Positions 29,214 to 57,309 of a DNA stretch of 64,000 nucleotides are shown here, piece after piece. The notes beneath the pieces were generated by a model. That model did no database searches, was not told where the DNA came from, and saw only the letters and a program-made list of their open reading frames with translations. Source of the stretch: Liquidambar formosana (lineage: Eukaryota; Streptophyta; Magnoliopsida; Saxifragales; Altingiaceae); the NCBI GenBank assembly GCA_039720395.1, contig CM077831.1:11423803-11487802 (forward strand), in the 5' to 3' direction. How positions within the stretch are numbered: position 1 is the first letter of the stretch; each line of letters opens with the position of its first letter. The position numbers and the translations under genes are program-made.

Positions 29214-29422
29214 TGTATTAGTAGTATGCCCTACAACCAATCATAGAGATGATGCTTTAGGGATAAAGAACAATCATAAGATTTCATTTATTGTATGTCA
29301 CATTTATTATTATTTAATAAAGGGTTTATTCTATCATGTTTATTTCATTCTTAATATTTACATAATATGTCCATGGAGTTAGAGTTGAGAATATGAAATT
29401 ACAATAAGTTGTGATTTTGAGA

Positions 29423-29424
<2 letters not shown>

Positions 29425-29480
<56 letters not shown>
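29425..29480. repeat. (TA)n microsatellite in family-A copy 3
   Basis: About 55 bp of TA at the place where other family copies have only TATATCTCTG, so it arose after insertion of this copy. Confidence 0.88.
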
Positions 29481-29483
<3 letters not shown>

Positions 29484-31399
29484 TTTGTACTAAACTCCTA
29501 AATCATTCCTAGTTGAAGGTTCATTGTGATGGACAATAATGAACCATAAGACTAACACATGTTAGGTTGGCTCTATAGGAGGATAGCTAGTCTCAAGCTT
29601 TTATATGTAGACACTGTAACCAACATGTGGGTGCCTATTTCATGAATAAGTACACTGAATGTGACGATAGAAAAAGAGATTAACTGAATGGAGTTTTAAC
29701 CATCTGTCAATCAGTTTCTCATAGTTGCAGTGGTACAAGTAATACTTAGAGCTGAGACACCATAGTTGTCTTATGCATATAACCTTAGAAGTTTGATAAC
29801 ACTAAGTGTAGATTCTTATGGGGTTTACAAAGATGTTCATCGGACCTATTGATATATGTGTGAAGGCATGTGAGTAATTAATAAGGAATCTACACTCTCA
29901 GTAAAAGAGAGATAATGTTCACATAGCATTCATAATATAACTCATAAAGTCCATAGCCATGGTAGGATGATTATGGAAAGGAGTTTTCATAAGTGCATCA
30001 ATAAGTTAATATTCATGAATGGGTATAAAGTATTAAACTAAGGACTTGACAGACTTCCATGTCCTATTAGTTTAATCAGAGACATTGTATAGATGGAAGG
30101 ATGTAATTGTAACCTTAAGCTATAATTGAAGGGTTCTTTGTTCGATATTTATTCACTTCATCAAGGACCACACCATGAGCCATTGCTAGATGCTACTCAT
30201 GATTAATAGAAACCCTAATTGATATAAATAAGTTATAATCAATTAGCGAACTGGAAGTTGTTCTAATTAGACCCTTAAAGAAAGTGTTCCATTGTGCACA
30301 CCTTGTGCTATTCCTACTACTCGATGATGTGAACCCAATGGGTCACACACTGATCATGCAAAGAGGGACTTTAAAGCTTTGAAAGAAAAGGCAAGATTGA
30401 ATAAGAAAAGTTCTAGAGGGAAACACTTGTATTAGATATAAAAAGAAGGGGTTAAACTACAATTTGGAGAAATTGCAAGTTAGAATCCATAAGGGATTCT
30501 CTCCCCATGGTCGGCCCTCATTAGTGGCTATATAGAGCCACACTAGCATGTGGCAAGTTACTTTAATTCACTATCTCTAAGCTCTAGCTGAGTTGGAGAA
30601 GCTCTCTTTTTCTCTCTCTCTTCCTCTCCTCTTCTAGCTTCAACAAAGATTAGTTAAGGGAAGCTTGAAGGCGTATGCTAGGTGTGGATACTGTCACACC
30701 CCATTTTTGCCACCTTAGCTAGGGTTTGTCATTTCATGTGTCTTTTTGTTTCCTTTTTGAGTCTAGTTTTTTGCATTGAGCTTCTAGAGCCTTGAGGATG
30801 GTGTGTATGAATTTTGGTTCAATTTGGAGATGATCTTGAGGGATAATAAGAGCTTTTGTGACTTGAGGGGCATAATCGTCTTTTAGGTCACAAACTTTTC
30901 ATTTAACCTTGAAATGATCTCCAAATTGTCAATTAGAGTTCATGAACATGCATTTGAGGTATTTATGGGTTCAATTTGATGAATTGATGGTTCGGGATTA
31001 AAATAGCTCAATATGGCTTAGGTTGGTTAAGAGACCTATCTCGGGTTAGCTCAAATCGGCTCATGATTTTCACTCAATTCCCACTCATTTGACTTTAATT
31101 AGTCTTAATTTCATTCCTAAAGATGTTTTGGAAGGTTGAATTTTGAATTGGAAAGCATTCGGTGCGACCTTATGTGCATACCTAAGCTTAGCGACTATGG
31201 TGCATAGCGGTTAGCCGCCTTTGTAAAACCCAAACATGCAGCCATGGCTAGGGATTTTTGTCCTAAAATGTCTTAAATTACATTCCTTATCGAAGCACGG
31301 TCGTTTTGGCTTTCGTTTCGTCAAAATCGGACTCTGTTTGACCCCCGAAACACATTTGGAAGCTGAAAGGGCTCAAATAAGGCAATTGCTGATGGTGCG

Positions 31400-31500
31400 C
31401 TCGGGTGACCACCTGGGGCTTGGCGGCTAACCGCCCAGCCCAGGTGGTCAGCCGCCCAAGGCCAGGTGGCTAGCCGCCCAGCCCTAGGTGGTCACCCGAG
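31400..31500. promoter_or_regulatory. GC-rich dyad in the LTR
   Basis: Outer arms CTCGGGTGACCACC (31400-31413) and GGTGGTCACCCGAG (31487-31500) are perfect reverse complements. Between them are GGCGGCTAACCGCC and similar GGCGG/CCGCC arms. It stands out as GC-rich in AT-rich DNA, about 190 bp upstream of the TATA box. The 3' LTR copy (41703-41780) and the solo LTR at 54161-56869 (56097-56176) have the same design. Confidence 0.75.
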
Positions 31501-31687
31501 CCAATTTCCTTTTTTGAGTGTTGACGCGGCTCCCTCCCTATTTCCTCGGATTTGCTCGCCTCCAACCGCCATTTAACCCTAGTTTCAACCCTATTTGACC
31601 TACTTGAGCCCCATGGGAACCTCTAAGAGCCCTTGGATCAATACCTAGGGTTTTAATCCCAACCATTGAGGGTTTTCCCTCAAACCC

Positions 31688-31695
31688 TATAAATA
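31688..31695 (+). promoter_or_regulatory. LTR TATA box
   Basis: TATAAATA in the context CCCTATAAATACCCCC. It is kept in the 3' LTR (about 41969) and, on the - strand, in the solo LTR near 55893. It probably positions element transcription start about 30 bp downstream. Confidence 0.7.
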
Positions 31696-33795
31696 CCCCC
31701 TTATACTTCAGCAATAGGGGAGGCAATTTCTGAAGTGTGAGGCATGTATGAGACTTGGAGGCTATGGCAGCTATCCTTAGGGTAGTTTAACCTAAATTTT
31801 GAGTGAGAGAGTGAGAGAGAAAGCTTGAAGGAAGGCTGAAGTTGGGCTTGAAGGCTTGAAGGAAGGAATTCCCAGCAGTGCATAAGAGGAGGAGGACTCT
31901 CTACAGCAGCCACCATAGGTATACCTCTCCCCCTTTCTCTCTTTCATTCAAATTAGGGTTTTCTGCATAGGATAGCATTATTTCGTGTGCAAGTTTATAT
32001 TTTTATCATGTGTTGATGCTTCTAATGCTTAGAATGCATGATTAGGATATTGTTTATGGCTAGTTTTGCATGATATAATGTCATTCCATGTGACTTTGCG
32101 AGTGTTTGTGTTTTTAGGGTTTCTAGAGTCTTTTCTAGGGTTTTGCATTGAATAGTCATTATTTCATGTTCAAGTTTATGTCTTTATCATGTCTTGTTGC
32201 TTCTATTAGCTAGTATGCATGTTTAGGATGATATTTATGGGCTGTTTAGTATGCTAGGATGCTATTCCATGTGATTTACTGCATGTTTGGGATTCTAGGG
32301 TTTCCTTAGTGCTGAAATTGAGTTTATGCTTAGAATAGCTTTATTTCATGTGAAAGTCTATGTCTTTAGCATGTGTGGATCATTCTATTGATTAATATGC
32401 ATGGTTAGAATGCTGTTCATATTCTGTTTTGCATGATTTAGGGTTGCTTCATGGGATTTTATGCACTAGTGTGATTCTAGGGTTTTTATCATCCTTGTGT
32501 TGGTTTAGTTGCATATAGCACGATAGCTTAGGGATTTTCTCTGTTTTTTCTTCATAGTTGCTGCATATGTGTTCCATATTAGGTAACTATGATATTTCTA
32601 GCATTTATATAGTTGATTTTAGGGTTTTTTGCATGTCATTGCATGTAGGGTTGAGTTAAGGTTTTAGTTAGCTTATGATTCATGTTGTTTACATGATTTA
32701 TGGTTGATTTTAAGCCCTATTTCAATTCTGTCCAGATCTGTTTAATGGCTTTAATGATGAGTTTTGAGCATGTGTTAGCCTATGTTTGAGCATGATAATT
32801 GCTTGAGTATTTTTGGTGTTTTTTGCATGCAAATTGCAGGTGCTTGACAGGTACAACAGGTGCAACTACCCCACCAATGTGGGGTGGTTATTTTGGCTAT
32901 TGCAAGATGAAATCTTGCGAATAAGATAATTACCTTATGCAATAGGGTGGTTATTTTGACAGGTTGCTTTTGCTTAAAGGTAAGTAGGGTATGAGGGTGC
33001 CCCAATTCACCCTTCTTTCCTTTCCTTGAAACTTTCCCTTTCTCCCCCCCTAGGGTTATTCCTTAATAGAGGGGTATGGTAGATTCCTATAGTATCCTTT
33101 CATAAAAAAAAATACCTTTTAAATCAAAGTTTCCATTTTTTTTTATCAAATTCCATATTTACCAAAAATCTTTTGAAAATCATTTATTTTGGAAACTTAC
33201 CATGTTTTTCTTGAAAGGAAACTTAGGGTTTACCATAGGCCTCTATTAGGTTATAACCCTATTCCCTTTCGAACTACGTGGACTTTGATCCATGTATTTC
33301 CATACATGGTACGTAGGCGCTCTTCGTGAGGTTCAAGTCCGCCCTAGGATACTAAGTATCCTAGGTTTTCTCCCCCTCTTTCTTTTTTCTGTTTTTCTTT
33401 GATTTAATTGCTTATATGGATGAATGAATGGATGATATGCATGCTGTCTTGTGATTATAATTGTTAATTGATGTGTGATTAAGACTTTAATTTGGCCCAA
33501 TTAAATTAAGAGACCGTTTAGGGCGATATGGATGCCTATAGGCTTTGCCTAGAACCTTCCCATATCGTAACTTAGCCTCCGAATCCCCGATTTCTTTGGT
33601 TTCCAAAAGATCTTTTGCCTTACCATTTTTAAACACGGAGTCATTCTTTTGTTTTCCTAAAACAAAACTGTTTTTTAGGGTTTTCCTTGTTTCCTTTAAA
33701 AAATAAGGTGGCGACTCCTTTCCTTTTCGTTTTCAAACCCACCATATTTCCTTTTCAACCCTCGTGGGCCTCACTTTTTTTTAGGGTTCACAGTT

Positions 33796-33813
33796 TGGCG
33801 ACTCCGCTGGGGA
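33796..33813 (+). other. Primer binding site, tRNA-Arg type
   Basis: TGGCGACTCCGCTGGGGA begins three bases after the LTR end. A TGGCGACTC-x-x-CTGGGGA primer site complementary to tRNA-Arg is usual for Ogre/Tat elements (by recall). The perfect placement supports the LTR boundary at 33792. Confidence 0.85.
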
Positions 33814-34903
33814 TTTGTGGGCTAGACTCTATACAATTTGATTGGGCTAAGTTAATTTCTTTTGTTTAATTAAAATCAATCACATTGCATTCGCTTGATT
33901 GTGTGCTTTCATTTATTGCATTGTGTGCGCAAACTCTTGCATGTTAGGATCGATGTCCCTTGCAACTGACGGGCCTAGCCTCAACCTTGGTTTTCCTGAT
34001 TCCATGTGTTGGGGCGAAAGCTCTCAACCTCTCTTGCCAAGTACCCTTGGGCTTGCCCTTGGGTATATTAAATGAGTTAATCACGTACTGCTGGACCCAC
34101 GCGGCGTTCCTGATTCCACATGTGGTTAGGTATAAAGATTGCTCAAGCAAGTGAAGGACCCCAGCCTACCCTTATCATTAGTCCATATAGACAGACTTGT
34201 AGGGCACTATGGTCTCACCTTTATGCACCCACACTTGATTGTAATGATATCATGCCGTGCTTGTGTTGTGTTGCTATGCTCATAAGTTGTGTTCTAGGCT
34301 TAGGTTTACTTTAACCATGTGTAGTGATTAACACTTGATATATGGTCTCACCTACGTACCCTTAGTAAGTACATCCACCCTTCACCCAAGGGGCTCCCAA
34401 AAGGAAGGATGGACTAATTAAAAGTATGTGAGCTAAGATCATTTAATCATGGGCTTTTAAGTAAACCAATAAGGGCTTGTTTGGAATGAAGTGTTTAATT
34501 AAGGGTTAAGAAGTTGGGGCTTATTCATCTTTATGTCCTTAGTATGTCACCTCACCTTCCATCTTAAGGACACTTTTGAGGATAAGGTGTCTAACTAGGG
34601 AGATATCCTGTTTAGACCTTGCTCATAGTTTGCCTACACTTGGGGGAAAGTGACTCTTGATGGTTTTGTGATGGTTAATAACCAGAACCTAAGGCTAAGT
34701 GACTCACCTTCATGTCCTTAGTACGTCACCTCACACTCCAAGGTATCCTTGAAGATGAGATGTCTAAGGGGATGCTTTATAAGATCACATTTATCAATTT
34801 AGCGCAGTCATGGAAATATTGTTAAAATGTTTTGGTCATAGCCTAAAAAGGGGATTTTGTTCTTGAAGGGGGGTTGGATTAAACCCGTGACAACTTATTA
34901 AGG
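33814..34903 (+). other. 5' untranslated leader of the Ogre/Tat-like element
   Basis: About 1.1 kb without a supported gene. A block with TATGTCCTTAGTATGTCACC (about 34531) recurs at 34711 as CATGTCCTTAGTACGTCACC. Short open frames (33944-34314) are considered chance. Confidence 0.6.
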
Positions 34904-35878
34904 TTGGACTCAAATTTTGAACCTGAGATGGCTAACAAAGGGACTAGTGAAAGGAACTTTGACCTTGAGGCTTGTTTGAAAGCCATCATGACTAAGCTTG
35001 ATTACACCACTGATGTATCTGAGAGAGCATTGAAAATGGCCCAAGATATCCAACATAAGATATCGGAACCCGAACAGAATAATGGCCGTACCCCGAGGGA
35101 TAACACCGAAGATGGGACTCAATCTGGAGAAGGCACTAAGACCAATGAAGGAGGAAGTACTAAACCTAAGGGGAGTGAACCACCTGAAATTTTTAACCTA
35201 GAAGGGGGAAGTAAGGGGAAGACCTCTGATACAGACTCTGTGTTGGCTAGCAAGGTAGAAGCATTGGAGAGAACTATAAAGGGAATCCGTAGGACGGATG
35301 ACATGGTAGATGTACATACCCTATCTTTATTTCCTCAAGCTCGTATTCCACTACAATTTAAGATGCCCGAATTAGAAAATTTTGATGGAACGGGTTGTCC
35401 TAAGACTCATTTGAAGATGTATGTGCGAGCTATGCACCCTCGAGGGGCCACTGACGAGCTTTTGGCTCAAATGTTCCATGAAATCTTGGCCACTTCCGCT
35501 TTGAAATGGTTTTTATCATTGGATGAGAAGAGGACTCGGACTTGGGAGGACATATGTAATGAATTCTCGGAGCACTACAAGTACAATACGGAGGTGGACG
35601 TTACTCGAAGAGACTTGGAGACTACAAAACAAGGGGCTAATGAAACCTTCTCTGGATTCATTACAAGGTGGAGACGAAAGGCTTCTCAAATGGTGAACCG
35701 ACCCAATAAAGAAGAGCAGATTCAGATGGTAGTTAAGAACCTCCTCCCTATCTACCATAAGCATCTATTTGCAAGCTATTTTCCGAACTTTAAGGCCTTG
35801 ATTGGGGCTAGAACTCAAGTAGAAGATGTCATTGGTGACGGTACAATTGAGGAAGATGAGACATTAGGGAACTCCTGA
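34904..35878 (+). CDS. Ogre/Tat-type gag, N-terminal and capsid part
   Basis: A 324-residue frame. Residues 1-130 are polar and low in structure. Residues 140-290 form a retrotransposon gag domain, recognisable by FKMPELENFDGTGCPKTHLK, YVRAM, ALKWFLSL, WEDICNEFSEHYKYN, and ETFSGFITRWRRKAS. These match Tat/Ogre gag (PKFxMPxFxKYDGxxxPxxHLxxY; AxxWYxxL; W-x-L-x-x-x-F-x-x-x-Y; F-x-x-Y-x-x-R-W-R). The product would form the particle shell that packages element RNA. It ends in TGA, but the same frame stays open beyond to 36190, so this stop splits an otherwise continuous gag. Confidence 0.88.
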   Translation: MDSNFEPEMANKGTSERNFDLEACLKAIMTKLDYTTDVSERALKMAQDIQHKISEPEQNNGRTPRDNTEDGTQSGEGTKTNEGGSTKPKGSEPPEIFNLEGGSKGKTSDTDSVLASKVEALERTIKGIRRTDDMVDVHTLSLFPQARIPLQFKMPELENFDGTGCPKTHLKMYVRAMHPRGATDELLAQMFHEILATSALKWFLSLDEKRTRTWEDICNEFSEHYKYNTEVDVTRRDLETTKQGANETFSGFITRWRRKASQMVNRPNKEEQIQMVVKNLLPIYHKHLFASYFPNFKALIGARTQVEDVIGDGTIEEDETLGNS

Positions 35879-36190
35879 ACTGGAAGTAATGGAAAGACAC
35901 ATAGGCATGTTAATGCCATATCTCCCCAACAGTCCCGCCAATTTACTGAACTCTACATGCCATTAAGCGATGTTTTTGAGAAGTTGAAGGTGAAAGGTTT
36001 GCTTCAACCCCTTGACCCAGCACCGCTGCCTAACCCATTACCTCGTCGCTTTAAAGAGAATGAGTATTGTGACTTCCACCAAGGCAAGGGGCATAGCACT
36101 GATCGATGCCCAAGGTTAAAACATGAAATCCAAGACCTCTTTGACAAGGGAATTGTCTCTCCACCTAAGGCACCCAATCATTCACTCTAA
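35879..36190 (+). CDS. Distal gag with CCHC-like knuckle, in frame after the TGA
   Basis: The reading in the same frame directly after the TGA gives 26 residues before the first Met (35957), then LYMPLSDVFEKLKVKGLL, PLPNPLPRRFKENEYCDFHQ, and a knuckle C-D-F-H-Q-G-K-G-H-S-T-D-R-C. This matches the Tat/Ogre block YCxxHxxxGHxTxxC-xxLKxxIQxLI, here followed by PRLKHEIQDLFDKG. Plain translation of the upstream frame would omit it; a start at 35957 or stop readthrough would be needed. It ends at TAA/36190. Confidence 0.8.
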   Translation, partial: TGSNGKTHRHVNAISPQQSRQFTELYMPLSDVFEKLKVKGLLQPLDPAPLPNPLPRRFKENEYCDFHQGKGHSTDRCPRLKHEIQDLFDKGIVSPPKAPNHSL

Positions 36191-36880
36191 AGGCAATCCA
36201 TTTAGTGCTTACTGTCGCACCAATTTTGTCATGATTGTTTGTGATAAAGAGTTTAGGTTGTTTGTCCTACAGAAGACTTAGGGTTTATTTCTTTGTTTTC
36301 TAGTTATTTGATTGTTTTCGTCTTTCAAGTCAAATTTCCTTTGAAGTTTTGAGTCTTTTGAGTCCTAGTCATTGTCAATGTATTCACCTTCATTCCCTCA
36401 ATAAAAAGTTTGATTTCAATAATTCCATTGTCTCTCTATTTCTCTTGTCCTCAATCAATTGACAATCAAAGTGGCATTAAAATATTTCCTAAGAAGCTTG
36501 AAAGCTCTTCCCACTAAAAGAACAAACATAATGAATGATGAATGAGCTGCAATTGATTAACTTGGAAACAATGAGAAGTCCAAAATGGTAAACATAGGGG
36601 CCACCCGCCCACTACACTACATGAAGACCTACGCCAAGCAACTTGAGAAGATCTTGAAACCCTTGCAAGAAGCAATTCAGAGATCAAAAGAAGAAATCAA
36701 TTAGCATGGTGAGCTTTTGGAGATATTTATTTCCCTCTCCCTCAAAAGACAAAAAAAAAAAAGACAAAAAAAAAAAATAAAGTCAAAAGAAAAAAATTGT
36801 GAAAAAAAAAAAGGAAAAAAGAAAGAAAAGAGCACAACAAAGAAAAAAAGTACAAAAAGAAAGGGAAGGGATTAACATAC
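36191..36880 (+). other. Junction region where pol is missing
   Basis: No protease, RT, RNase H or integrase core motif appears. The DNA includes an A-rich tract (36748-36858) whose Lys-rich frame (from 36799) is compositional. The breakpoints of the deletion lie somewhere here. Confidence 0.65.
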
Positions 36881-37017
36881 ATCCAAAAGCATTTAGAAGG
36901 AAAATTGATCAGAAGAAGGCCTTGTGTTCAAAGAGGACTACTACCTATGTTCATGACCCGCAGGAAAAGTTCAAGCCAAATGAGGGTGGTCCCTATGTGG
37001 TTATGTGTAGAGCCTAG
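36881..37017 (+). pseudogene. Integrase C-terminal tail remnant
   Basis: The end of the frame reads CSKRTTTYVHDPQEKFKPNE then GGPYVV. In complete Tat/Ogre elements the polyprotein ends with a similar block (DPRGKFxPNWxGPYVV). It is the only part of pol left and ends at TAG/37017. Confidence 0.7.
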
Positions 37018-37967
37018 GCCCGCTAGGTTGAAAACCTGAAAAGGCGACCTAGGCAAAAGTTAGGGCTTTTGAAAAAAAAAATGATGAAAAAAGAAAAGAG
37101 AATGCTTTGAACTACGAAGACCTGATTCTCCACCAAAAAAGAAATGTTTGTTTTGTAAATGTCTTGTGAAGATCAATGTGGAGATACGTAGGCAGCACAT
37201 AAAGTTACTTTGGGTGCGGTCCAATTCATTGAAAAAGAAAAAGAAAGAGGCTTTACATATAACCAACCATTGAAGGCAATTCTTTGTGACTAAGTTAAGA
37301 AGAAACAGTCTTATTCATTAAATTAGTGAGCTAAAATACTACATGTCATCGAGAAAGTTAATTTGATTATTCTTCTTGTTCTTGTTTGGTTTGAGTCCTT
37401 CGGATGTCCCTCCACTTTCTTCCTTTGCCTCTCTTGAGTCTTGTGTGTTTCTAGTGGTCATAGACCTCGTCCGTTGAAAGTATTCAGTCATAATGATTCA
37501 TCTGTGGGTTCCATCAAATTCTATATCTTCTTACCTTTTGACTTAGACTCTTGTCATGGATTTAATGATGGAAAAGGGGCAGCAGTAACCATTATGAAAC
37601 AATTTGCCTTAGCTGTAGGCATGTGATTTCGTGAGATTAGGGCTGATTTATTTTGCTCAATTGAAAAATGTGAATGTGCTATGAACCCAGGGGCTGATTA
37701 TGCTTGTTGAAGAAGAATTTGAATGAATGCTGGGGCTGGTTTATCTTGTTCAAGAGAACTTAAATGAATTGGTGAAGAGAATGGGCTAGGGCTTCATGAG
37801 TTGCATTTCTTTGCACTAGTGAGAAAGGAAAGAATGGAGAAAAGAAAAAAGCTAAAGAAGAAAAGCCCGCTAGGTTGAAAACCCGAAAGGGCAACCTAGG
37901 CAAAAATTAGGGCAACCCGCTAGGTTGAAAACCCGTAAGGGCAATCTAGGCAAAAGTTAGGGTTTTG
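37018..37967 (+). repeat. Three copies of a 3' untranslated motif
   Basis: The phrase CCCGCTAGGTTGAAAACC, then GAAAAGGCGACCTAGGCAAA-like sequence, occurs at about 37019, 37867 and 37917. The last two are tandem with a period of about 50 bp. Similar phrases follow pol in Tat-type elements (by recall). Arms CTAGG and CCTAG are opposed, so each can fold. Confidence 0.75.
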
Positions 37968-38424
37968 GAATAAAAGAGAAGTGCAGAAAGAAGAAGGAAA
38001 GAGGTGTTTCGACTTGATTCCTACACCTTGAAGAAGAATTCATGGGTTTGATCCAATCCTCTTGAAATGCATTGTTTCCTAAGAAGGCTCGACCACCATT
38101 TTATAAACAAAGAAAAAATGTTTTTGAAAATTCCATGATTGTGCTAAGTATGTAAAGAGGTCTTTAAGGAAAAAGAATGATAGGTTTGCAAAACCATTTC
38201 TAGATAATCTTTCTGTGCATGAACTTGTGCTCATAAATCTGTGTGGATCAATTTTACCTGAGTTAATTGATTAGTTGATGTGTGCATTAGTAATATGCAG
38301 TGTTCATTGAGTTTTGGAGGTCCATTTTCCCATGACCATATTTGCTTGAGTATTCGCCATTGGGTTACACCCAAGTAGCCATGTGAGTGATATTTTTTCT
38401 TTATGTGGTGTTGGCTTTGTCCTC

Positions 38425-40855
38425 ATACCAACCTTGTCTTATGAGTAGTGACTCCTACTTAACTAATGTTTTGTTAAGCTCCCCTATGAGTGTTTACCTA
38501 TATTCTTTTTTCTTGAGCACTGACCTTTGCTCGTTTGGAATATTGACTATTATTCATCTCGAGTGTTGACCTTCATTCATTTTGAGTATTCACTCATACT
38601 CCCCTCTCGAGCATTGATCCTTGTTCGTTCTATAATATTGATTCTTATCCATTATAGGTATTGATTCCAAACCCCTTCAGCATGTCTCCTCTGTTCATAT
38701 GTTTTTGTTTTAGGTATTGACTTCTACCTATGCAATCTCTCGGCATTCTTTGAGTATTGACCCTTACTCATCGCCAACAGTGACTTTTGCTCATATAATT
38801 TTCTTTGTGAGTATTGACTTTTACTCATTTTAAGCATTGACCTTTGCTTTTATCTTGAGCATTGACCCTTGCTCGTATGGTTTTCTCTATAAGTATTGAC
38901 TCCTACTCATTTCAAGCATTGACCTTTGCTTATATATGTTTTATCTTGAGCATTGACCCTTGCTCATATGATCTTCTTTGTGAGTATTGACTCCTACTCA
39001 TTCCAAGCATTGACCTTTGCTTATATACATTTTATCTTGAGTAATTGACCTTTGCTCGAATAATTTTCTCTGTGAGTATTGAATCCTACTCATATCAAGC
39101 ATTGACCTTTGCTTATATACATTTTATCTTGAGCATTGACCCTTGCTCGAATAATTTTCTCTTTGAGTATTGAATCCTACTCATTTCAAGCATTGATCTT
39201 TGCTTGTATACATGTTATCTTGAGCATTGACCTTTGCTCGTATGGTTTTCTCTATGAGTATTGACTCCTACTCATTTCAAGCATTGACCTTTGCTTATAT
39301 ACGTTTTATCTTGAGCATTGACCCTTGCTCATATGATCTTCTTTGTGAGTATTGACTCCTACTCATTCCAAGCATTGACCTTTGCTTATGTACATTTTAT
39401 CTTGAGCAATTGACCCTTGCTCGAATAATTTTCTCTGTGAGTATTGAATCCTACTCATATCAAGCATTGACCTTTGCTTATATACATTTTATCTTGAGCA
39501 TTGACCCTTGCTCGAATAATTTTCTCTTTGAGTATTGAATCCTACTCATTTCAAGCATTGATCTTTGCTTGTATACATGTTATCTTGAGCATTGACCCTT
39601 GCTCGTATGATTTTCTCTGTGAATATTGAATCCTACTCATTTCAAGCATTGACTTTTGCTTATATACATTTTATCTTGAGCATTAACCCTTGCTCGTATG
39701 ATTTTCTCTATGAGTAATGAATCCTACTCATTTCAAGCATTGACTTTTGCTTATATACATTTTATCTTGAGCATTGACCCTTGCTCGAATGATTTTCTCT
39801 GTGAGTATTGAATCCTACTCATATCAAGCATTGACCCTTGCTCGAATAATTTTCTCTTTGAGTATTGAATCCTACTCATTTCAAGCATTGATCTTTGCTT
39901 GTATACATGTTATCTTGAGCATTGACCCTTGCTCGTATGATTCTCTTTGTGAGTATTGAATCCTACTCATTTCAAGCATTGACTTTTGCTTATATACATT
40001 TTATCTTGAGCATTGACCCTTGCTCGTATGATTTTCTCTGTGAGTATTGAATCCTACTCATTTCAAGCATTGACTTTTGCTTATATACCTTTTATCTTGA
40101 GCATTGACCCTTGCTCGTATGATTTTCTCTGTGAGTATTTAATCCTACTCATTTCAAGCATTGACCATTGCTTATATACATTTTATCTTGAGCATTGACC
40201 CTTGCTCGTATGATTTTCTCTGCGAGTATTGAATCCTACTCATTTCAAGCAATGACCCTTGCCCATAAGCTTTTCTTTGTGAGTATTGATCTTTACTCAT
40301 AGCAAGCATTGACCCTTGCTTGTGTGTTTTTAAGTATTGACTTCTATTCAGTATGGATATTGAATTCTATCCATTATGGGTTCCCGTTTGAGTAATGACT
40401 CTTACCCATACGATATCTTATTGGCTCTCCTGAGTATTGACCTATACTCATTCTGAGTACTGATATATACTCATCCTAAGTATTGACCTATACTTACCCT
40501 GAATATTGTCGCATCTTGAGTGTTGGCCCATACTCATCCTATGTATTGACCCATACTCATTCTAATCATTAAAGCATATTTGTCCTGAGTATTGACTAGT
40601 ACTCACCCCAAGTGTTGACCTTCACTCTGATTCATTTTGAGTATTGACGGGTACTCACACCAAGTGTTGACCTCCACTCATATTCATCCCTACTCCTTTC
40701 GAGTATTGACTATTACTCACCCTGAGTATTGACCTTCACTCCCAATACCGATTCTCTTCGAGTATTGACTTGTACTCATCCTAGGTGTTGACCTTCACTT
40801 AGAGTTACCTCTACTTGTCCTGGGTATTGACCTTTACCCAGACATTGACTTCTAG
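38425..40855 (+). repeat. Tandem array of hairpin-forming units with a TTGAC loop
   Basis: About 80 units of roughly 30 bp. Three unit types alternate in the regular part: GAGTATTGACTCCTACTC, AAGCATTGACCTTTGCTT and GAGCATTGACCCTTGCTC, giving a 91-bp monomer. In each the 5-6 bp arms are complementary and enclose a loop beginning TTGAC. Irregular units at both ends keep complementary arms of different sequence. A 364-bp four-monomer period is clear at about 38980-39710. It lies in the 3' untranslated part, just before the purine tract and 3' LTR, the place where Ogre elements are known to carry variable tandem repeats. The open frames across it (39774-39959, 40013-40198) are by-products. Confidence 0.92.
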
Positions 40856-40982
40856 TTGCTTAAGATATGTGATGAATTCCACAAGATGATGGAGTTCTCC
40901 ATTTGAATTTGATGCAATTACTCTCCCAGACAAAAATGGGATGTTCTTTATCATTGGTTCGCAAGTGAAACTTGCTGCACCA

Positions 40983-40994
40983 ATGAGGGGCTTC
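40983..40994 (+). other. Polypurine-rich tract before the 3' LTR
   Basis: ATGAGGGGCTTC lies directly before TGTCACACC. It is a weak tract with a G run, in the correct place for plus-strand priming. Confidence 0.5.
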
Positions 40995-43900
40995 TGTCAC
41001 ACCCCATTTTTGCCACCTTAGCTAGGGTTTGTCATTTCATGTGTCTTTTTGTTTCCTTTTTGAGTCTAGTCTTTTGCATTGAGCTTCTAGAGCCTTGAGG
41101 ATGGTGTGTATGAATTTTGGTTCAATTTGGAGATGATCTTGAGGGATAATAAGAACTTTTGTGACTTGAGAGGCATAATCGTCTTTTAGGTCACAAACTT
41201 TTCACTTAACCATGAAATGATCTCCAAATTGTCAATTAGAGTTCATGAAGATGAATTTGAGGTATTTATGGGTTCAATTTAATGAATTGATGGTTCGGGA
41301 TTAAAATGGCTCAATATGGCTCAGGTTGGTTAAGAGACCTATTTCGGGTTAGCTCAAATCGGCTCATGATTTTCACTCAATTCCCACTCATTTGACTTTA
41401 ATTAGTCTTAATTTCATTCCTAAAGATGTTTTGGAAGGTTGAATTTTGAATTGGAAAGCATTCAGTGCGACCCTATGTGCATACCTAAGCTTAGCGACTA
41501 TGGTGCATAGCGGTTAGCCGCCTTTGTAAAACCCAACCATGTAGCCATGGCTAGGGATTTTTGCCCTAAAATGTCTTAAATTACATTCCTTATCGAAGCA
41601 CGGTCGTTTTGGCTTTCGTTTCGTCAAAATCGGACTCCGTTTGACCCCCGAAACACATTTGGAAGCTGAAAGGGCTCAAATAAGGCAATTGCTGATAGCG
41701 CGCTCGAGTGACCACCTGGGGCTTGGCAGCTAACCGCCCAGCCCAGGTGGTCAGCCGCCCAGCCCCAGGTGGTCACCTGAGCCAATTTCCTTTTTTGAGT
41801 GTTGACGCGGCTCCCTCCCTATTTCCTCGGATTTGCTCGCCTCCAGCCGCCATTTAACCCTAGTTTCAACCCTATTTGACCTACTTGAGCCCCATGGGAA
41901 CCTCTAAGAGCCTTTGGATCAATACCTAGGGTTTTAATCCCAACCATTGAGGGTTTTCCCTCAAACCCTATAAATACCCCCTTATACTTCAGCAATAGGG
42001 GAGGCAATTTCTGAAGTGTGAGGCATGTATGAGACTTGGAGGCTATGGCAACCATCCTTAGGGTAGTTTAACCTAAATTTTGAGTGAGAGAGTGAGAGAG
42101 AAAGCTTAAAGGAAGGCTGAAGTTGGGCTTGAAGGCTTGAAGGAAGGAATTCTCAGCAGTGCATAAGAGGAGGAGGACTCTCTACAGCAGCCACCATAGG
42201 TATACCTCTCCCCCTTTCTCTCTTTCATTCAAATTAGGGTTTTCTGCATAGGATAGCATTATTTCGTGTGCAAGTTTATATTTTTATCATGTGTTGATGC
42301 TTCTAATGCTTAGAATGCATGATTAGGATATTGTTTATGGCTAGTTTTGCATGATATAATGTCATTCCATGTGACTTTACGAGTGTTTGTGTTTTTAGGG
42401 TTTCTAGAGTCTTTTCTAGGGTTTTGCATTGAATAGTCATTATTTCATGTTCAAGTTTATGTCTTTATCATATCTTGTTGCTTCTATTAGCTAGTATGCA
42501 TGTTTAGAATGATATTTATGGGCTATTTAGTATGCTAGGATGCTATTCCATGTGATTTACTGCATGTTTGGGATTCTAGGGTTTCCTTAGTGCTGAAATT
42601 GAGTTTATGCTTAGAATAGCTTTATTTCATGTGAAAGTCTATGTCTTTAGCATGTGTGGATCATTCTATTGATTAATATGGATGGTTAGAATGCTGTTCA
42701 TATTCTGTTTTGCATGATTTAGGGTTACTTCATGGGATTTTATGCACTAGTGTGATTCTAGGGTTTTTATCATCCTTGTGCTGGTTTAGTTGCATATAGC
42801 ATGATAGCTTAGGGATTTTCTCTGTTTTTTCTTCATAGTTGCTGCATATGTGTTCCATATTAGGTAACTATGATATTTCTAGCATTCATATAGTTGATTT
42901 TAGGGTTTTTTGCATGTCATTGCATGTAGGGTTGAGTTAGGGTTTTAGTTAGCTTATGATTCATGTTGTTTACATTATTTATGGTTGATTTTAAGCTCTA
43001 TTTCAATTCTGTCCAGATCTGTTTAATGGCTTTAATGATGAGTTTTGAGCATGTGTTAGCCTATGTTTGAGCATGATAATTGCTTGATTGGAAACTAGCT
43101 TGGTTGGTTGGTATTTTTGGTGTTTTTTGCATGCAAATTGCAAGTGCTTGATAGGTACAACAGGTGCAACTACCCCACTAATGTGGGGTGGTTATTTTGG
43201 CTATTGCAAGATGAAATCTTACGAATAAGATAATTACCTTATGCAATAGGGTGGTTATTTTGACAAGTTGCTTTTGCTTAAAGGTAAGTAGGGTATGAGG
43301 GTGCCCCAATTCACCCTTCTTTCCTTTCCTTAAAACTTTCCCTTTCTCCCCCCCTAGGGTTATTCCTTAATAGAGGGGTATGGTAGATTCCTATAGTATC
43401 CTTTCATAAAAAAAAAATACCTTTTAAATCAAAGTTTCCATTTTTTTTTATCAAATTCCATATTTACCAAAAATCTTTTGAGAATCATTTATTTTGGAAA
43501 CTTACCATGTTTTTCTTGAAAGGAAACTTAAGGTTTACCATAGGCCTCTATTAGGTTATAACCCTATTCCCTTTCGAACTACGTGGACTTTGATCCATGT
43601 ATTTCCATACATGGTACGTAGGCGCTCTTCGTGAGGTTCAAGTCCGCCCTAGGATACTAAGTATCCTAGGTTTTCTCCCCCTTCTTTCTTTTTTTTGTTT
43701 TTCTTTGATTTAATTGCTTATATGGATGAATGAATAGATGATATGCATGCTGTCTTGTGATGATAATTGTTAATTGATGTGTGATTAAGACTTTAATTTG
43801 GCCCAATTAAATTAAGAGACCGTTTAGGGCGATATGGGTGCCCATAGGCTTTGCCTAGAACCTTCCCATATCGTAACTTAGCCTCCGAATCCCCGATTTC

Positions 43901-44098
43901 TTTGGTTTCCAAAAGATCTTTTGCCTTACCATTTTTAAACACGGAGTCATTCTTTTGTTTTCCTAAAACAAAACTGTTTTTTAGGGTTTTCCTTGTTTCC
44001 TTTAAAAAATAAGGTGGCAACTCCTTTCCTTTTCGTTTTCAAACCCACCATTTTCCTTTTCAACCCGTGTGGGCCCTAACTCCTTTTTAGGGTTCACA
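40995..44098 (+). repeat. 3' LTR of the Ogre/Tat-like element
   Basis: 3,104 bp, nearly identical to 30692-33792. Differences include substitutions in the first 800 bp (about 20 seen by hand), loss of a 22-bp segment in the GC-rich dyad block, and about 22-24 extra bp at about 43088-43111 (GGAAACTAGCTTGG, then TTGG repeats). The end is TTTTTAGGGTTCACA. Confidence 0.9.
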
Positions 44099-44464
44099 GA
44101 TACCATTAAAGGCAGAACACTTGGGTTGCTCAAACCATTGCTGTCCGGATTCAAAGTTTGAAGGAAAAAGAAGAAGATATAAAGAAATGTAAGTATTTAA
44201 ACCTTTCTTCTAGTTAGGGTTTATAGTTTTGTATTGAAACATAATCAGATTCATGGGCTGCCTGGAATTGATAGGAAATTTTTGTTATTCAAGTTATTCC
44301 ACATTCTTATTTCCCTTTAGTTCAATTCCTAAGATAACCAACAACCATAGACTTAAGGATCTCATGTAAATCATCACCCTTTTCATGTAATTAGGGTTTT
44401 AGTTTTGGTAATGAATTGCAATCAGATTCAAGGCTTTAAGGAATTGAATCAAAATTTTTGTTAT

Positions 44465-48006: not shown

Positions 48007-50943
48007 TGTTAGCCTCAATGTTTCATTCCATGAATATATTGTGATTTTGATGATAACAAAACATTGATAATTATGAGCTAATGTTTATCATTAAGTTGAT
48101 CATTATAAGTTAGGACTTTCTACACTCAAATGAGTTATCATAAGAAGAAAGCCAAGAGAACAAGGAAAGCAAACAAGAAGAAAGCAAGGGATCAAGGGCA
48201 AATCAAATGGCTTCACCAAGTGAAAGATCAAGAGAAGTATAAAGCTTCAAAGAAGAGAAGACTCCAACTCTCAAGAGCCCCATCAAAAAAAGACTTAAAG
48301 TTATTGAAGACTTGGGTATTTAGGTGAGAGTTAGGACTTCATGTAAATGGTTGATTGGTAAAGCTCAAGTGACCTAGATGGACCTTAGGACCCTTGAACC
48401 AATTGATTTTATAATTTGCATAAGGCCTAAGTTAAACTGGTTGGACTTAATTAATCAAATTTCTTAGAAAATCACTTTTTACTAGTTTCTGCCCAAATCA
48501 ATCGACTCATTTGTCAAATCAGTCGACTCAATTGAATAGAGAATGATGAAAATGTGTTATACTGATTCTTCCTGAATTAAGCGACTGAGTTACCAATTCA
48601 GTCGACTGAATTGGTGTTTCAGTCGACTGAATTTGCAATTCTGACGCTATAACGGCTAGTTTCTAAGCCCCAAAAAGTGCTTCAACGGCTCTATTTTTGA
48701 ATGGGCTCATTCCCAACAGTTATGAACCATTTTAACCTATATTTATAGTGTTCCAAACTGTTAGGATTATGCCCTAGAGCCAATCATAGAGATGATTGTT
48801 TAGGGATTAGGAACAATCATTTGATTTCATTTATGTATGTCGCATTTATTATTGATTTAATAAAAGGGCTTATTCTATTATGTTTATATGCATCATTTAT
48901 ATTTACATAATATGTCCATGAAGTTAGAGTTGAGAATATGGAATTACAAAGAGTTGTAATTTTGAGACTGTAGATATATCTCTGTACTAAACTCCTAACG
49001 CATTCCTAGTTGAAGGTTCACTATGATGGACAATAATGAACCATAGGACTAGCACTTGTTAGGTTGACTCTATAGGAGGATAGCTGGTCTCAAGCTATTT
49101 GTGTGGAGACACTATAACCAACAAGTGGGTGCCTATTACGAGAATAGGTACACTGAATGTGACCAAAGATATGAAATAAACTGAATGGAGTTTTATCCTG
49201 CCTGTCAATCAGTTTCTCATTGTTATAGTGGTACAAGTAATCCTTAGACCTGAGACACCATAGTTGTCTTATGCATGTAGCTTTAGAAGTTTGATAACAC
49301 TAAGTGCAAATCCTATTCAGGGGTTTGCAAAGGTGTTCATTGGCCCTACTGCTATGTGTATGAAGGCATGTGAGTGATCAACAAGGGATCCATCACTCTC
49401 AGGAAAAAAAAGAGAGAGAATGTCTCATATAGCATTCATAATATAACTCATTAAATCCATGGCCATGGTAGGATGAATATGAAAAGAGTTTCATGAGTTC
49501 ATCAATGAGTTGATATCTATGAATGAGTATAAAGTAATTGAACTAGGGACTTGACAGACTTCCATGTCCTATTAGTTCAATTGGAGACATTGTGTTGAAG
49601 GAAGGATGCAATTGTAACCTATAAACTATAACAGAAGGGTTCTTTGTAAATGACTATTCACCTCATTAAGGACCACACCATGAGCCATATGCTAGGTGTT
49701 ACTCATGGTTAGTAGAAGCCCTAATTGATATAAGTGAGTTATAATTAATTAGGGAATTGGAAGGAGTTCCAATTAGACCCTAAATGGAAAGAGTTCCATT
49801 GTGCACATCTCGTGCTATTCCTACTACTTAATGATGTGAACCCAATGGGTCACACACTAATCATGCAAGAAGAGCTTTAAGGTCTATGAGAGAAAGGGCA
49901 TAAGTGAATAAAAGAAAAGTTCTTAAAGGCTTAGTTTGTATTTAATATAAACTAGAAGGGTTATTGTGTAATTAAGAGTAATTACATAAAACCCTAATAG
50001 GGTTTCCCCCTGGGGCCGGCCCCCTTAGTGTGGACTATATAAGTCACACTATGATGTGTGACATCATCATAAGTGAGGCTCCCTAAGGGCTGGCCAGAAT
50101 TTCTAGCTTCCCTCTCTCTCTCTCCTCTCTTCTCCTACACTAGCAACAACAAGGAAAATGAGGAAAGGACTTGAAGCTCTAGCTAAGTGTGGATACCGTT
50201 GGAGGCAGCACACTTGGGCTGCTCATTCACCGCAGTCCGGAGTCGAAGCTTGGAGCAAAACGGAGAAGACAAAAATTCTATAAGTGTTCTAACCCTCTTC
50301 GTAGTTAGGGTTTGATTTTGTGTTATGCATAGTTAGATTCATGGGCTGTGGAATCGTAGGAAAAATTTTTATATTCCGCACTTCAATTTTTCCCTCTTGT
50401 TCGATTCCCAACACAAACACTTTGGGAGTATGGATTAACAAAAGGAAAATGATTATACTCTTCATATCCATTATTAAACCCTAGATCCACATACTTGAGC
50501 TTTCATTGTTCATATCATATTAGGTTGAACTTAATTTTCTATTCTCCCTATCAAGAGGGATTTGTTATTGTATCTCATTCACATCTATCTTTGAGAGATT
50601 GAGGGTTGGGAATAACCCTTGTTAAGTAAAGGGGATTTGCTTATTGTAAAGATTTGATCTACACCCACAAGTAGATTGGGTTTGATATTCACCCGCAAAG
50701 AGATTGGTTAATGGATTTAGAACCCTCAAGCGGAGTTCTTGAGGCAAGGACGTAGGCGGGAGAACCGAACCGCGTTATATCTTGTGTTTGATTTCTCTAA
50801 CTCTTTCTTATTTATTTGCTTTCATTAATTGTGCTAATTGCATCATTATTTAATTTACTATATTTGCAAAAGTTTTTTAAAGTTGCATATATTTTACATC
50901 AACCTAATTCACCCCCCTCTAGGGTTGATTATCTGGGCCAACA
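48007..50943 (+). repeat. 3' LTR of the SIRE-like element, split by a solo LTR
   Basis: The parts 48007-48758 and 50414-50943 rejoin at CCAAAC/ACTTTGGG exactly as in the uninterrupted 5' LTR (45187-45205). The open frame at 48130-48327 is LTR sequence and not a gene. Confidence 0.9.
48759..50413 (+). mobile_element. Solo LTR, family A, copy 2 (TSD CAAAC)
   Basis: 1,655 bp from TGTTAGGATTATGCCC to GATTCCCAACA. Target duplications CAAAC lie at 48754-48758 and 50414-50418. The empty site survives in the 5' LTR of the host element. It is close in sequence to copy 1 at 3090-4748, so both are relatively recent. No internal region remains. Confidence 0.92.
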
Positions 50944-54160: not shown

Positions 54161-56869
54161 TGTGAACCCCGGAAATTGGGCCCACAAGGGTTGGGAAGAA
54201 AGAATGGGGGTTTGGTTTTGAAAGAGAAGAAAAGGAGTCACCACCTTATTTTTTAAAGGAAACGAGGAAAACCCTAAAAATAGTTTGTTTTAAGAAAACA
54301 ATTTGAATGACTCCATGTTTAAAAAGGAAAGGCAAAAACAGTCTTTTGGAAACCAAAGAAATCGGGGATTCGGAGGCTAAGTTATGACATGGGAAGGTTC
54401 TAGGCAAAGCCTATAGGCACCCATGTCACCCTTTCGGTCTCTCAGTTCATTTGGGCTAAATTAAGATCTTTCCATACAAAAATCAGCAAGTATATCATCA
54501 CAAGAATTGCATGCATATCATATATTCCATTCATCCATCCATGCATAATAAGCAAATAAAACAGAAAAGAAAGAAAAAAGAAAAGAAAGCAGAAATAAAT
54601 CTAGGATGCTTGGATCCTAGAACGGACTTGAGCCTCACGAAGAGCGCCTACGTACCATGCAACGAAATACATGGATCAAAGTCCACGTAGTTCGATTAGA
54701 AATAGGGTTAAGTCCTAATATAAACCTATGGTAAAAACCCTAGGTTTCCTTATTTGATCAAAAGAGTTGAATATGATAGATAAACCAAGTTTGAGTTTAA
54801 GAACACTTCCACAAGATGGAAACTTTAACAAAAACCAGAATTTTATTGGTTAAGGAAACCTTTGATTATACCATAAACTCATATTAGGAAATAACCCTAA
54901 AGAGGAAGAAGAGAAAGAATTAAGGAGAGAGGTGAATTGGGGCACCTTCACACCCACTTACCTGAGCGCAATAGCTCCAAGCATTAGCCATTTCAAGCAT
55001 TGGCAGCCCTATTTGCCATAGGACAAGTACCACACCTATTTGCACCCTTACACGTGCTCAAAACCATGCAAACACACTAACATGTAAATCTGGACAGAAT
55101 AGTATTATGACCTAAAATCATCCACTAAACATGCCAATAACAAAAACAGCAAACTTTCATAAGCCCTAACACAATCCTAGAACCATATTATGCATAAAAC
55201 CCTAGAAATCAACTAGCATGCATGCAAAAATATCATATTTACTCCATATGTAAAACATACACAGCAACTATGAAGAAAAAAACAATAGAAAGACCTACTT
55301 TAACATGCTATATAAAAACTAACATAAAACAAGGACACTAAAACCCTAAACTCACAAATATGCTTAAAAACACACAAAACATACTCCACACATATTAAAA
55401 CCAAACTAAACAGAACCTAAATCATGCATATTAACTAACTAAAACAATAAAACATGACAACAATCCTAATTCTAGCATGCGATAACACTATCCTAGCACA
55501 AGGACAACAGGAGCACAAGAATCACACCTATGCATTAAGACCCATGAACTAACTCTAAAGCATGCAAAACCCATCATGAACATCATTATTATCACATGTA
55601 TTAACTTATAGAAACCTCAATCCATGGTAGAAATCATAAGCATGGCATGCGATAGAGCTATCCTACATGATACCCTAGTTTAAGCTTGAATAGAAAGGAG
55701 AATACCTTAGGGGAAGCCTTCCTTGCTGCTGTATGGACTCCTTCTTGCTCTTATGGATGTCTTCAATCAATGCTCTCCAAGGCTACAGCAGGTCCTCTTA
55801 CTCTCCTTCAAGTCTCTCTCTCTTATTCTCTCTCAAACATTTAGGTTTTTAAGCATAAAGTGGCTCCCTTTGTGCTGAAGCATAGGAGGGTATTTATAGA
55901 CTTCAATTAGGATTAACCAATGGCTGGGATTAAAACCCTAAAAATTAATCCAAGGGCTATTAGAGACCCCCTTGGGGCTTAAGTAACTCAGGGGTTACCA
56001 AAAATTAGAAGGAAACCCGTCCAAAAGAGCCCAAATACGTCAAAATAGGCAAGAGTCCGCTTCAGCAAGGAATCATAGAGCAAATAGGAAAGTGCTCTCG
56101 GGTGACCACCAGGGCCTAAGCGGCTAGCCACCTGGGCCCAGGCGGCTAGCCGCCCGGGGCTGGGTGGTCACCCGAGCCCACTTCAGATTTTTCTTCTATT
56201 TTGCCTCCTAATTCTTCTAGAAGTGTTTTAGGGGGCAAATTAACTCCGATTTTGATGAAACAAAAGCCAAAACGACCGTGTTTCGATGAGGAATATGTTT
56301 TTGAACATTTTAGGGTGAAAACCACTAACCATGGGGGCATGGTTAGGTTTAAACAAGACAGTTAACCACTATGCTCTACCTTTGCTAAGCATAGGCATGC
56401 ACATAGGGTCAAACCAAATTGAACTTCATAAAATACTTTTGGGGGTAAAATGATGACTAATGAAAGTCAATTTGAAAAGATTTAGTTGGTGATTGTGAGT
56501 CAATTAGAGCTAACCCAAGGAAAGGTCAATTAACCAACTTGAACTACATCGAGCCATTTTAATCCCGAACCATTGATTCATCAAATTAAACCTAGAAATA
56601 CCTCCTATGCATCCATATGAACTCCAATTGAAAATTTGGAGATCATTTCAAGGTCAAATGAAAAGTTTGGGACTTAAAAGACGATTATGCCCCTCAAGTC
56701 ACAAAAGCTCTTATTATCCCTCAAGATCAACTCTGAATTGAACCAAAATTCATATCCATTGTCCTTGTAACTCTAGAAACCTAATGCAAGCGACTAGACT
56801 CAAAAGGAAAACAAAAACATGCATGAAATGATGAGCCCTAGTAAGGTGGTGCAAAAATGGGGTGTGACA
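54161..56869 (-). mobile_element. Solo LTR of an Ogre/Tat-like subfamily (TSD GTAGA)
   Basis: A 2,709-bp unit begins TGTGAACCCCGG and ends GGGGTGTGACA on the + strand, so it is in - orientation. Target duplications GTAGA lie at 54156-54160 and 56870-56874. Many blocks match the reverse complement of 30692-33792: AAATCGGGGATTCGGAGGCT, CACGAAGAGCGCCTACGTAC, TATTTATAGACTTC, the GC-rich dyad at 56097-56176, and AAAACGACCGTGTTTCGATG. It is about 400 bp shorter and more diverged than the two LTRs at 30692 and 40995. No internal sequence remains. Confidence 0.9.
56097..56176. promoter_or_regulatory. GC-rich dyad in the solo LTR
   Basis: Arms CTCGGGTGACCACC (56097-56110) and GGTGGTCACCCGAG (56163-56176) are perfect reverse complements. 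The inner CGGCTAGCC and GGCTAGCCG units are palindromic. The outer arms are the same as in the 5' LTR at 31400-31500, although intervening sequence and length differ. Confidence 0.75.
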
Positions 56870-57309
56870 GTAGAGACTTGTTAAACTTGGTAAGTCTTAA
56901 AGACCTTCTTCAATAAAACCCATAAACTTTTTACAACCTCTTTAAAAATGTAGACTTTTTCAAAACAAGGGTTCAGTTGAGCAAAGTAGTTTGATCTACA
57001 TTTTCCAACAAGTTGTCCATTTTTAAACTCGAGGCTAGGATTGATAAAGTAGAGGCTAGTCATGACTCGATAATGTGGTGTCCCGACAAAAAGGGATAGA
57101 GCTACCATGAAAAACCTTACTAAATGCAAGGTAAAAGTAAAATAAAATTAATCAGGAATCTTAAACTTTTATAAAAAGCCATGATTTTCTTGATTTTAAG
57201 GGGTTCATTAACAAGCTATGTTCTTTGAGAATCCTGAGGTGTCCTAATATGGTTGGATGGGGTTACCTTGAAGAAACCCATGATGTTTCTTTTCTTGTAG
57301 TTTCTTAAA

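Follow-up and report, generated by a model that had tools for sequence, protein, structure and literature searches.

Retrotransposons of the plant Tat lineage, such as Ogre, Retand and the soybean elements Gmr9/GmOgre, carry hypervariable tandem repeats in front of their 3' LTR (PMC3305785, PMC11963269, PMC7004042). The array of mini-hairpins that we report here from Liquidambar formosana resembles these repeats in its location, in units that measure tens of bases and in its variable copy number; neither 'hairpin' nor 'secondary structure' appears as a term in the main text of the three papers. The element that houses the array shares with Retand and other Tat members the tandem repeats between the coding region and the 3' LTR. 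According to one of these studies, 97% of the Retand clusters possess an antisense open reading frame with a TRP28 domain, and the LTRs of the selected elements range from 315 to 1194 bp (PMC11963269). Such a TRP28 frame was not found in our element, in which six of the 10 scanned open stretches are oriented antisense to gag, and its LTRs of about 3.1 kb lie outside this range.

The closest working analogy for the array itself is packaging-signal-mediated assembly, a process in which many stem-loops vary around a common recognition motif (PMC6281560). A multitude of stem-loops with a common loop motif and variable stems is likewise what the array displays. In the systems concerned, MS2, the pregenomic RNA of hepatitis B and the picornaviruses, the signals are dispersed through the genome, whereas our array is contiguous and tandem and would belong to an RNA stretch that lacks a long reading frame. 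In gag-only, non-autonomous LTR elements of the TR-GAG type, a gag domain lies between a pair of LTRs flanked by target-site copies, and pol is absent; our element is similar to them in its LTRs, target-site copies and gag, with no pol found, and we know of no hairpin array in TR-GAG elements. Retrozymes are non-autonomous plant retroelements with a conserved RNA structure; they carry hammerhead ribozymes, whereas no such Rfam match was present between positions 30600 and 44200 of the DNA studied here. Searches of open-licence papers brought up no description of a covarying hairpin array for any LTR retrotransposon, in keeping with the first-pass annotation of this DNA, whose author knew of no described retrotransposon feature of this kind. 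Tandem repeats at this place are in themselves well described.

The window, i.e., the whole stretch of 64,000 nucleotides that was analysed, contains an LTR retrotransposon of 13.4 kb (30692-44098), the features of which are all given here for the + strand. Its 5' LTR (30692..33792; TG...CA) and its 3' LTR (40995..44098), each about 3.1 kb in length, were delineated by self-comparison and by their ends together with the target-site copy; the 5-bp target-site copies GATAC flank both LTRs at 30687-30691 and 44099-44103. The LTR pair is 96.5% identical (BLAST), and 55 of its 66 differences across 3087 aligned bases are transitions. Each LTR includes in its interior a 181-bp tandem repeat present in 2.5 copies (31964-32412 and 42245-42693). 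A gag reading frame (Retrotrans_gag, PF03732, E 2.9e-10) occupies 34883..35875, and in the window copy an in-frame stop (35876-35878) lies directly past it. Beyond this stop, a second open stretch in the gag frame (35879..36187) carries, as recognized by eye, a zinc-knuckle-like C-x2-H-x4-H-x4-C motif, which we take to resemble the zinc knuckles of Gag proteins; this second piece has no Pfam match. Elsewhere in the internal region, 10 of the 20 longest open stretches were scanned, again without a Pfam match; as far as scanned, the element is gag-only, with no pol found. Its gag relatives with plant names include those of oaks, chestnut, beech and stone oak; plant-like gag fragments are also filed under records of Solirubrobacter and Modestobacter and probably represent plant contamination. 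The stretch with the polypurine tract (ATGAGGGGC) is placed between the array and the 3' LTR (40860..40994).

The array occupies 38425..40855, with gag on one side and the 3' LTR on the other, and consists of 77-78 units built on the plan arm(5) - loop(8) - arm(5), i.e., a 5-bp stem closing an 8-base, TTGACNNN-like loop. The first-pass annotation had described about 80 mini-hairpins in this segment, and the seven units it quoted are all present in the sequence, with the four for which it gave positions sitting where it had placed them. A weight matrix free of any pairing term, whose training on TTGAC-bearing window units biases it toward typical bases, found 77 units in the array and none in 49 kb taken from other parts of the window. 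Since this matrix overlooks a few hairpins recovered by a stem search, e.g., those at 40354 and 40454, the figure of about 80 is correct. When stems of at least 5 bp and loops of 6-10 bases are counted in 25 equal chunks of the window, 23 of them clear of the array, one finds 62 non-overlapping hairpins in 2471 bases at the array and 6 to 24 per chunk elsewhere. Successive units are most often spaced at 23 or 34 (59 of 77), within a range from 18 to 103. Within the array, 38848..40262 is made up of a 91-bp higher-order repeat, each unit of which comprises three hairpins with the arm types GAGCA/TGCTC, GAGTA/TACTC and AAGCA/TGCTT; it is recent and covers more than half of the array, and the units can consequently not be taken as 80 independent witnesses. 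The loop measures 8 bases in 27 of the 31 units outside this repeat. It had been described as starting with a constant TTGAC, but it is not constant: TTGAC is found exactly in 51 of the 77 window units, with TTGAA, TTGAT and other starts in the rest, and conservation extends over most of the 5' half of the loop but not over its 3' half. A coding repeat is ruled out: a unit of 91 bp is not divisible by three, and none of the open stretches listed within the array is longer than 64 amino acids. A known RNA family is ruled out as the identity of the array by the lack of an Rfam match there; the six matches obtained up to E 1 for 30600-44200 are all situated in the LTRs and score below the gathering thresholds.

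The arms of the units differ and pair nevertheless, as had been stated at the outset: 352 of the 385 inner cells of the 77 window units are paired. Pairing in comparison with duplication plus mutation had been named as a check in the first-pass annotation, and the observed value exceeds a tree-based drift null in which the same number of changes per column was placed at random on the unit tree (mean 202 and maximum 306 in 1000 runs). The 61 two-sided cells were reached by 7 of these 1000 runs, and the five pair types by 278 of them, so that the number of pair types is not informative. The 31 units that do not belong to the 91-bp repeat have 135 of their 155 cells paired, a number that none of 10000 shuffles of the 3' arms reached (maximum 123), and 17 of these units are perfect, against a shuffle maximum of 13. 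A larger tree null was built from 730 distinct 36-mers of 40 arrays and run 200 times. In this data set, the paired shares of the five pairs from k0 to the outermost k4 (0.963, 0.919, 0.875, 0.895, and 0.811) stand against null maxima of 0.956, 0.711, 0.882, 0.881, and 0.747, and pair k2 is the one that does not surpass its maximum. The next pair outward, k5, is Watson-Crick in a share of 0.512 (null mean 0.414) and stays inside the null; hence, the stem ends at five base pairs. Compared with the mean of the null, mutual information is far higher at k0, k1 and k4 and a little higher at k2 and k3, and it exceeds the null maximum at no pair of these 730 36-mers in the 200 runs; among 528 column pairs, k1 ranks first and k0 twelfth, with several column pairs that are unable to pair scoring as high as the true pairs, between k1 and k0. 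The drift comparison thus comes out divided: the paired cells and four of the five pairs rise above the null, but the pair types, k2 and the mutual information remain within it. Seven of 209 branch events at k0-k4 are two-sided and lead from one Watson-Crick pair to another. Among the 502 distinct units of the 40 arrays there are 12 perfectly paired arm types, and 54% of these units are perfect versus 19% (at most 23%) with shuffled arms.

Exact counts were also made on both strands of the 718-Mb genome (370 contigs). For the varying pair k1, the matched forms GAGTA-TTGACNNN-TACTC (T-A) and GAGCA-..-TGCTC (C-G) occur 1430 and 1036 times, and the mixed forms T.G and C.A occur 50 and 45 times; reversed-pattern controls for these four counts gave 1 match in total. 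The three forms counted for the outer pair are AAGCA..TGCTT (1254), AAGCA..TGCTC (83) and GAGCA..TGCTC (1036). One orthologous unit followed through 40 sequences reads AGGTA..TACCT in 19 and GGGTA..TACCC in 10 of them, and both of its half-changed forms are present, AGGTA..TACCC in five and GGGTA..TACCT in two sequences.

Sibling elements, which had been named as a further check, were sought with a 165-base stretch around the polypurine tract (40840-41004) that has 1263 candidate matches; the 40 best of these were scored, all with at least 96% identity and the window included, and were used. All 39 fetched siblings carry a paired array with 34 to 75 units each, and the inner five pairs of these arrays are 89 to 96% Watson-Crick. 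The 40 arrays including that of the window comprise 2262 units, with 34 to 78 units per copy. As the siblings were chosen by a stretch adjoining the array, its frequency in the relatives as a whole cannot be read from them. A 23-base pattern across the junction of polypurine tract and LTR occurs at 3440 places in the genome (up to 2 mismatches; control 0). Of the first 100 junctions listed, which cover contig C1 as far as 33.5 Mb, six adjoin an array and 94 lack all of three exact unit types alongside, so that the array marks a minority subfamily. The three exact unit types, for which the listing of C1 is complete, reveal 10 arrays in this part of C1, four of them without a listed junction, and 14 arrays on the whole of this 56-Mb contig; extrapolated from C1, the genome-wide number would be roughly 180 arrays, which is an estimate only.

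Rates of change were compared in orthologous alignments of both array edges (3' edge, 40 sequences and 19 units; 5' edge, 38 sequences and 12 units). At the 3' and 5' edge, respectively, the changes per column amount to 0.46 and 0.84 in the arms, 0.51 and 0.74 at the TTGAC positions, 0.81 and 1.88 at the last three loop positions, and 0.64 and 1.40 in the spacers. The upstream flank has 1.99 changes per column (5' edge, 1362 columns); the downstream flank from the array to the 3' LTR has a value of 0.15 (3' edge), below that of the arms, and was not used as a neutral yardstick, as the siblings had been chosen by similarity to it. With all branches considered, the arms change less than the spacers at both edges (permutation p 0.034 at the 3' edge, 0.0004 at the 5' edge), a difference that is weak on internal branches alone (p 0.18 and 0.06). 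The TTGAC positions change less than the spacers at the 5' edge (p 0.004, all branches) but not significantly so at the 3' edge (p 0.15, all branches). In a base-matched comparison with spacer rates, the arms have 88 changes where 126 are expected at the 3' edge and 71 where 121 are expected at the 5' edge, and the TTGAC positions have 48 versus 62 and 31 versus 59, respectively. On the 730-unit tree, the units of which were found with the matrix biased toward typical bases, the inner four stem columns per side have 8-27 changes each and the columns outside the hairpin 32-60; loop positions 1-5 have 19, 10, 45, 10, and 23 and loop positions 6-8 have 43, 56, and 43 changes, with no reduction relative to the outside level at loop position 3 (45) and in the two outermost stem columns (42 and 34). 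Eight distinct indels fall wholly inside hairpins (five at the 3' and three at the 5' edge; 561 columns), 25 fall in spacers only (14 and 11; 679 columns), and 14 (seven at each edge) cross hairpin edges or comprise whole hairpins. The lower change in the arms and in most of the 5' loop is compatible with selection.

Folding of the transcript had been proposed as well, and in the predicted sense RNA, the array indeed forms hairpins: the mean pair probability is 0.65, 55 of 78 units are above 0.5, and the span-limited folding energy has a z-score of -13.9 relative to 40 dinucleotide shuffles. The corresponding predictions for the antisense strand are 0.51, 40 of 78 units and -9.8. Individual units (seven were folded) are predicted at -2.8 to -7.4 kcal/mol. 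A G.U wobble costs about 1.3 kcal/mol in RNA and an A.C mismatch about 3.5, with the two lying less far apart at the outermost pair (1.2 and 1.8 kcal/mol); as G.U is the cheaper departure, selection on RNA should leave more G.U than A.C. The departures in distinct units, 122 G.U and 110 A.C, are not clearly rich in G.U. They divide, in a split made after the data had been seen, into 98 to 52 at k0-k3 and 24 to 58 at the outermost k4; hybrids between units account for just 10 of 74 cases and were rejected as the source of the A.C excess at the outermost pair. The ratio is 66 to 59 among branch events and 50 to 45 genome-wide at k1. Taken together, the RNA-like wobble signature of the mini-hairpins is weak and mixed. 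For comparison, upstream of the array a nested hairpin of GNRA type is present, with copies in the window at 37023..37052 (inner stem CCT/AGG, loop GAAA), 37870..37899 (CCC/GGG, GAAA) and 37920..37949 (CCC/GGG, GTAA; one G.U in the outer stem), and with 105 copies, retrieved by overall similarity, in 36 of 40 loci. Its departures amount to 154 G.U and 4 A.C in 1155 cells when no anchor is used, and to 149 and 4 when an anchor fixes part of one arm; most of the G.U cells look inherited from a few changes and do thus not stand for 154 events. Its inner stems CCC/GGG and CCT/AGG compensate each other, and Rfam has no match at these hairpins. At least one motif of the element thus bears a signature of the kind expected for RNA.

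The first-pass annotation had attributed the matched arms to selection or to a copying mechanism that preserves the hairpin in RNA or in single-stranded DNA. Neither outcome that it had specified as a refutation materialized. Selection fits the reduced change in the arms and in most of the 5' part of the loop, but the nearly 1:1 ratio of G.U to A.C does not divide RNA, single-stranded DNA and copying from one another. We tentatively favour the reading that the array is a row of binding sites in the RNA of the element, the loop of which would be held during packaging by Gag, the predicted partner. Several observations speak against such binding sites in RNA, namely the 122 to 110 ratio of G.U to A.C, the lack of the array beside 94 of the 100 listed junctions, which means that the wider family does without it, and the weak rate differences on internal branches along with a mutual information inside the null. 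The main rival is a strand-symmetric correction of palindromes by template switching, during which the polymerase snaps back in the course of reverse transcription or repair and copies one arm onto the other, so that the arms change together without serving a function. It predicts the near-equality of G.U and A.C, on which count it does better, and the seven two-sided branch events out of 209 agree with it; its account of loop conservation is worse, as it leaves unexplained why the 5' half of the loop is mostly conserved and the 3' half is not, and why the stem stops at 5 bp and the loop keeps 8 bases in 27 of 31 edge units. Both half-changed forms, moreover, coexist in one orthologous unit. 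We regard this copying process as doubtful.

Could the pairing merely be inherited? In a neutral minisatellite, a few founders that were palindromic by chance would have been amplified, with nothing keeping their arms matched. In favour of it, the 91-bp repeat in the middle of the array is recent and has three main arm types, arrays have anywhere between 34 and 78 units, 278 of 1000 null runs yield as many pair types as observed, and tandem repeats are common in the matching region of plant Ty3/gypsy elements (PMC3305785, PMC11963269, PMC7004042). Such a history is nevertheless unlikely given that the pairing of the 31 units outside the 91-bp repeat beats all 10000 shuffles, that 12 perfectly paired arm types exist, that the paired cells exceed the tree null, and that the arms change less at orthologous positions. 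A role in single-stranded cDNA, e.g., as pause or priming structures for reverse transcription, would render both wobbles equally harmful, as their nearly equal numbers suggest, and would suit an array located just upstream of the polypurine tract; with weak stems of 5 bp and a loop motif left without explanation, it strikes us as improbable. The sequence TTGAC[CT] is the W-box, the site of WRKY factors, and TTGACY is present in 1346 of 2316 units, so that the array might act as an enhancer formed by a W-box cluster in double-stranded DNA. Binding to double-stranded DNA, however, gives no cause for differing arms to change together, and the frequent TTGAA and TTGAT units would not be W-boxes, which makes an enhancer very improbable.

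Returning to binding sites in RNA, we infer that selection keeps the hairpins, that RNA is their acting form, and that a protein, presumably Gag, reads the loop. A single-stranded site read by a protein is expected to combine a stem of fixed length and variable sequence with a loop whose length is fixed and whose 5' half is largely conserved, to have freer spacers, and to be present in many copies. Gag is the likeliest binder, given the gag frame of the element and the zinc-knuckle-like motif in the C-terminal piece of that frame. The RNA of the array would fold into about 80 hairpins whose stems would be kept by the co-changing arms, and Gag would hold each unit through its loop while the RNA is being packaged. 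On its own a unit would be weak, and avidity would come from the number of units, as has been proposed for the packaging-signal assembly of small RNA viruses. In its fullest form, a tandem packaging cassette bound by Gag, composed of about 80 loop-coded hairpins and growing and shrinking by unit duplication while its units are kept paired, this scenario appears quite unlikely. Large plant retrotransposons commonly bear tandem repeats in front of their 3' LTR; to our knowledge, no role has been settled for these, and a stem kept by co-change together with a half-kept loop would strongly signal that such repeats can be functional nucleic-acid sites. The way in which the RNA of plant elements, particularly of non-autonomous ones, enters particles would become open to direct tests with an RNA only a few hundred bases long.

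Some observations on the array and its surroundings deserve mention. At the 3' edge of the array in one sibling (L052), there is a run of 24-base TGAGTATTGACCCATACTCACCCC-type units that is missing from most of 21 aligned sequences; single units consequently multiply as well. A candidate cluster on contig C1 (L005) was dropped because it has no hairpins of the array type. A two-unit pattern gave no match in collections of viral contigs and of genome contigs, neither of which consists of plant genomes as such. LTR-related fragments in reverse orientation, with 73-82% identity to the LTR of the element, are located at 54178-56870 and 61713-62892 of the window and are probably older relatives. 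A second repeat family is represented at 3088-4749, 29218-30552, 44099-44290 and 48757-50414, the main copies of which are 81-91% identical; with pieces of this family on both of its flanks, the element may have inserted into one of its members.
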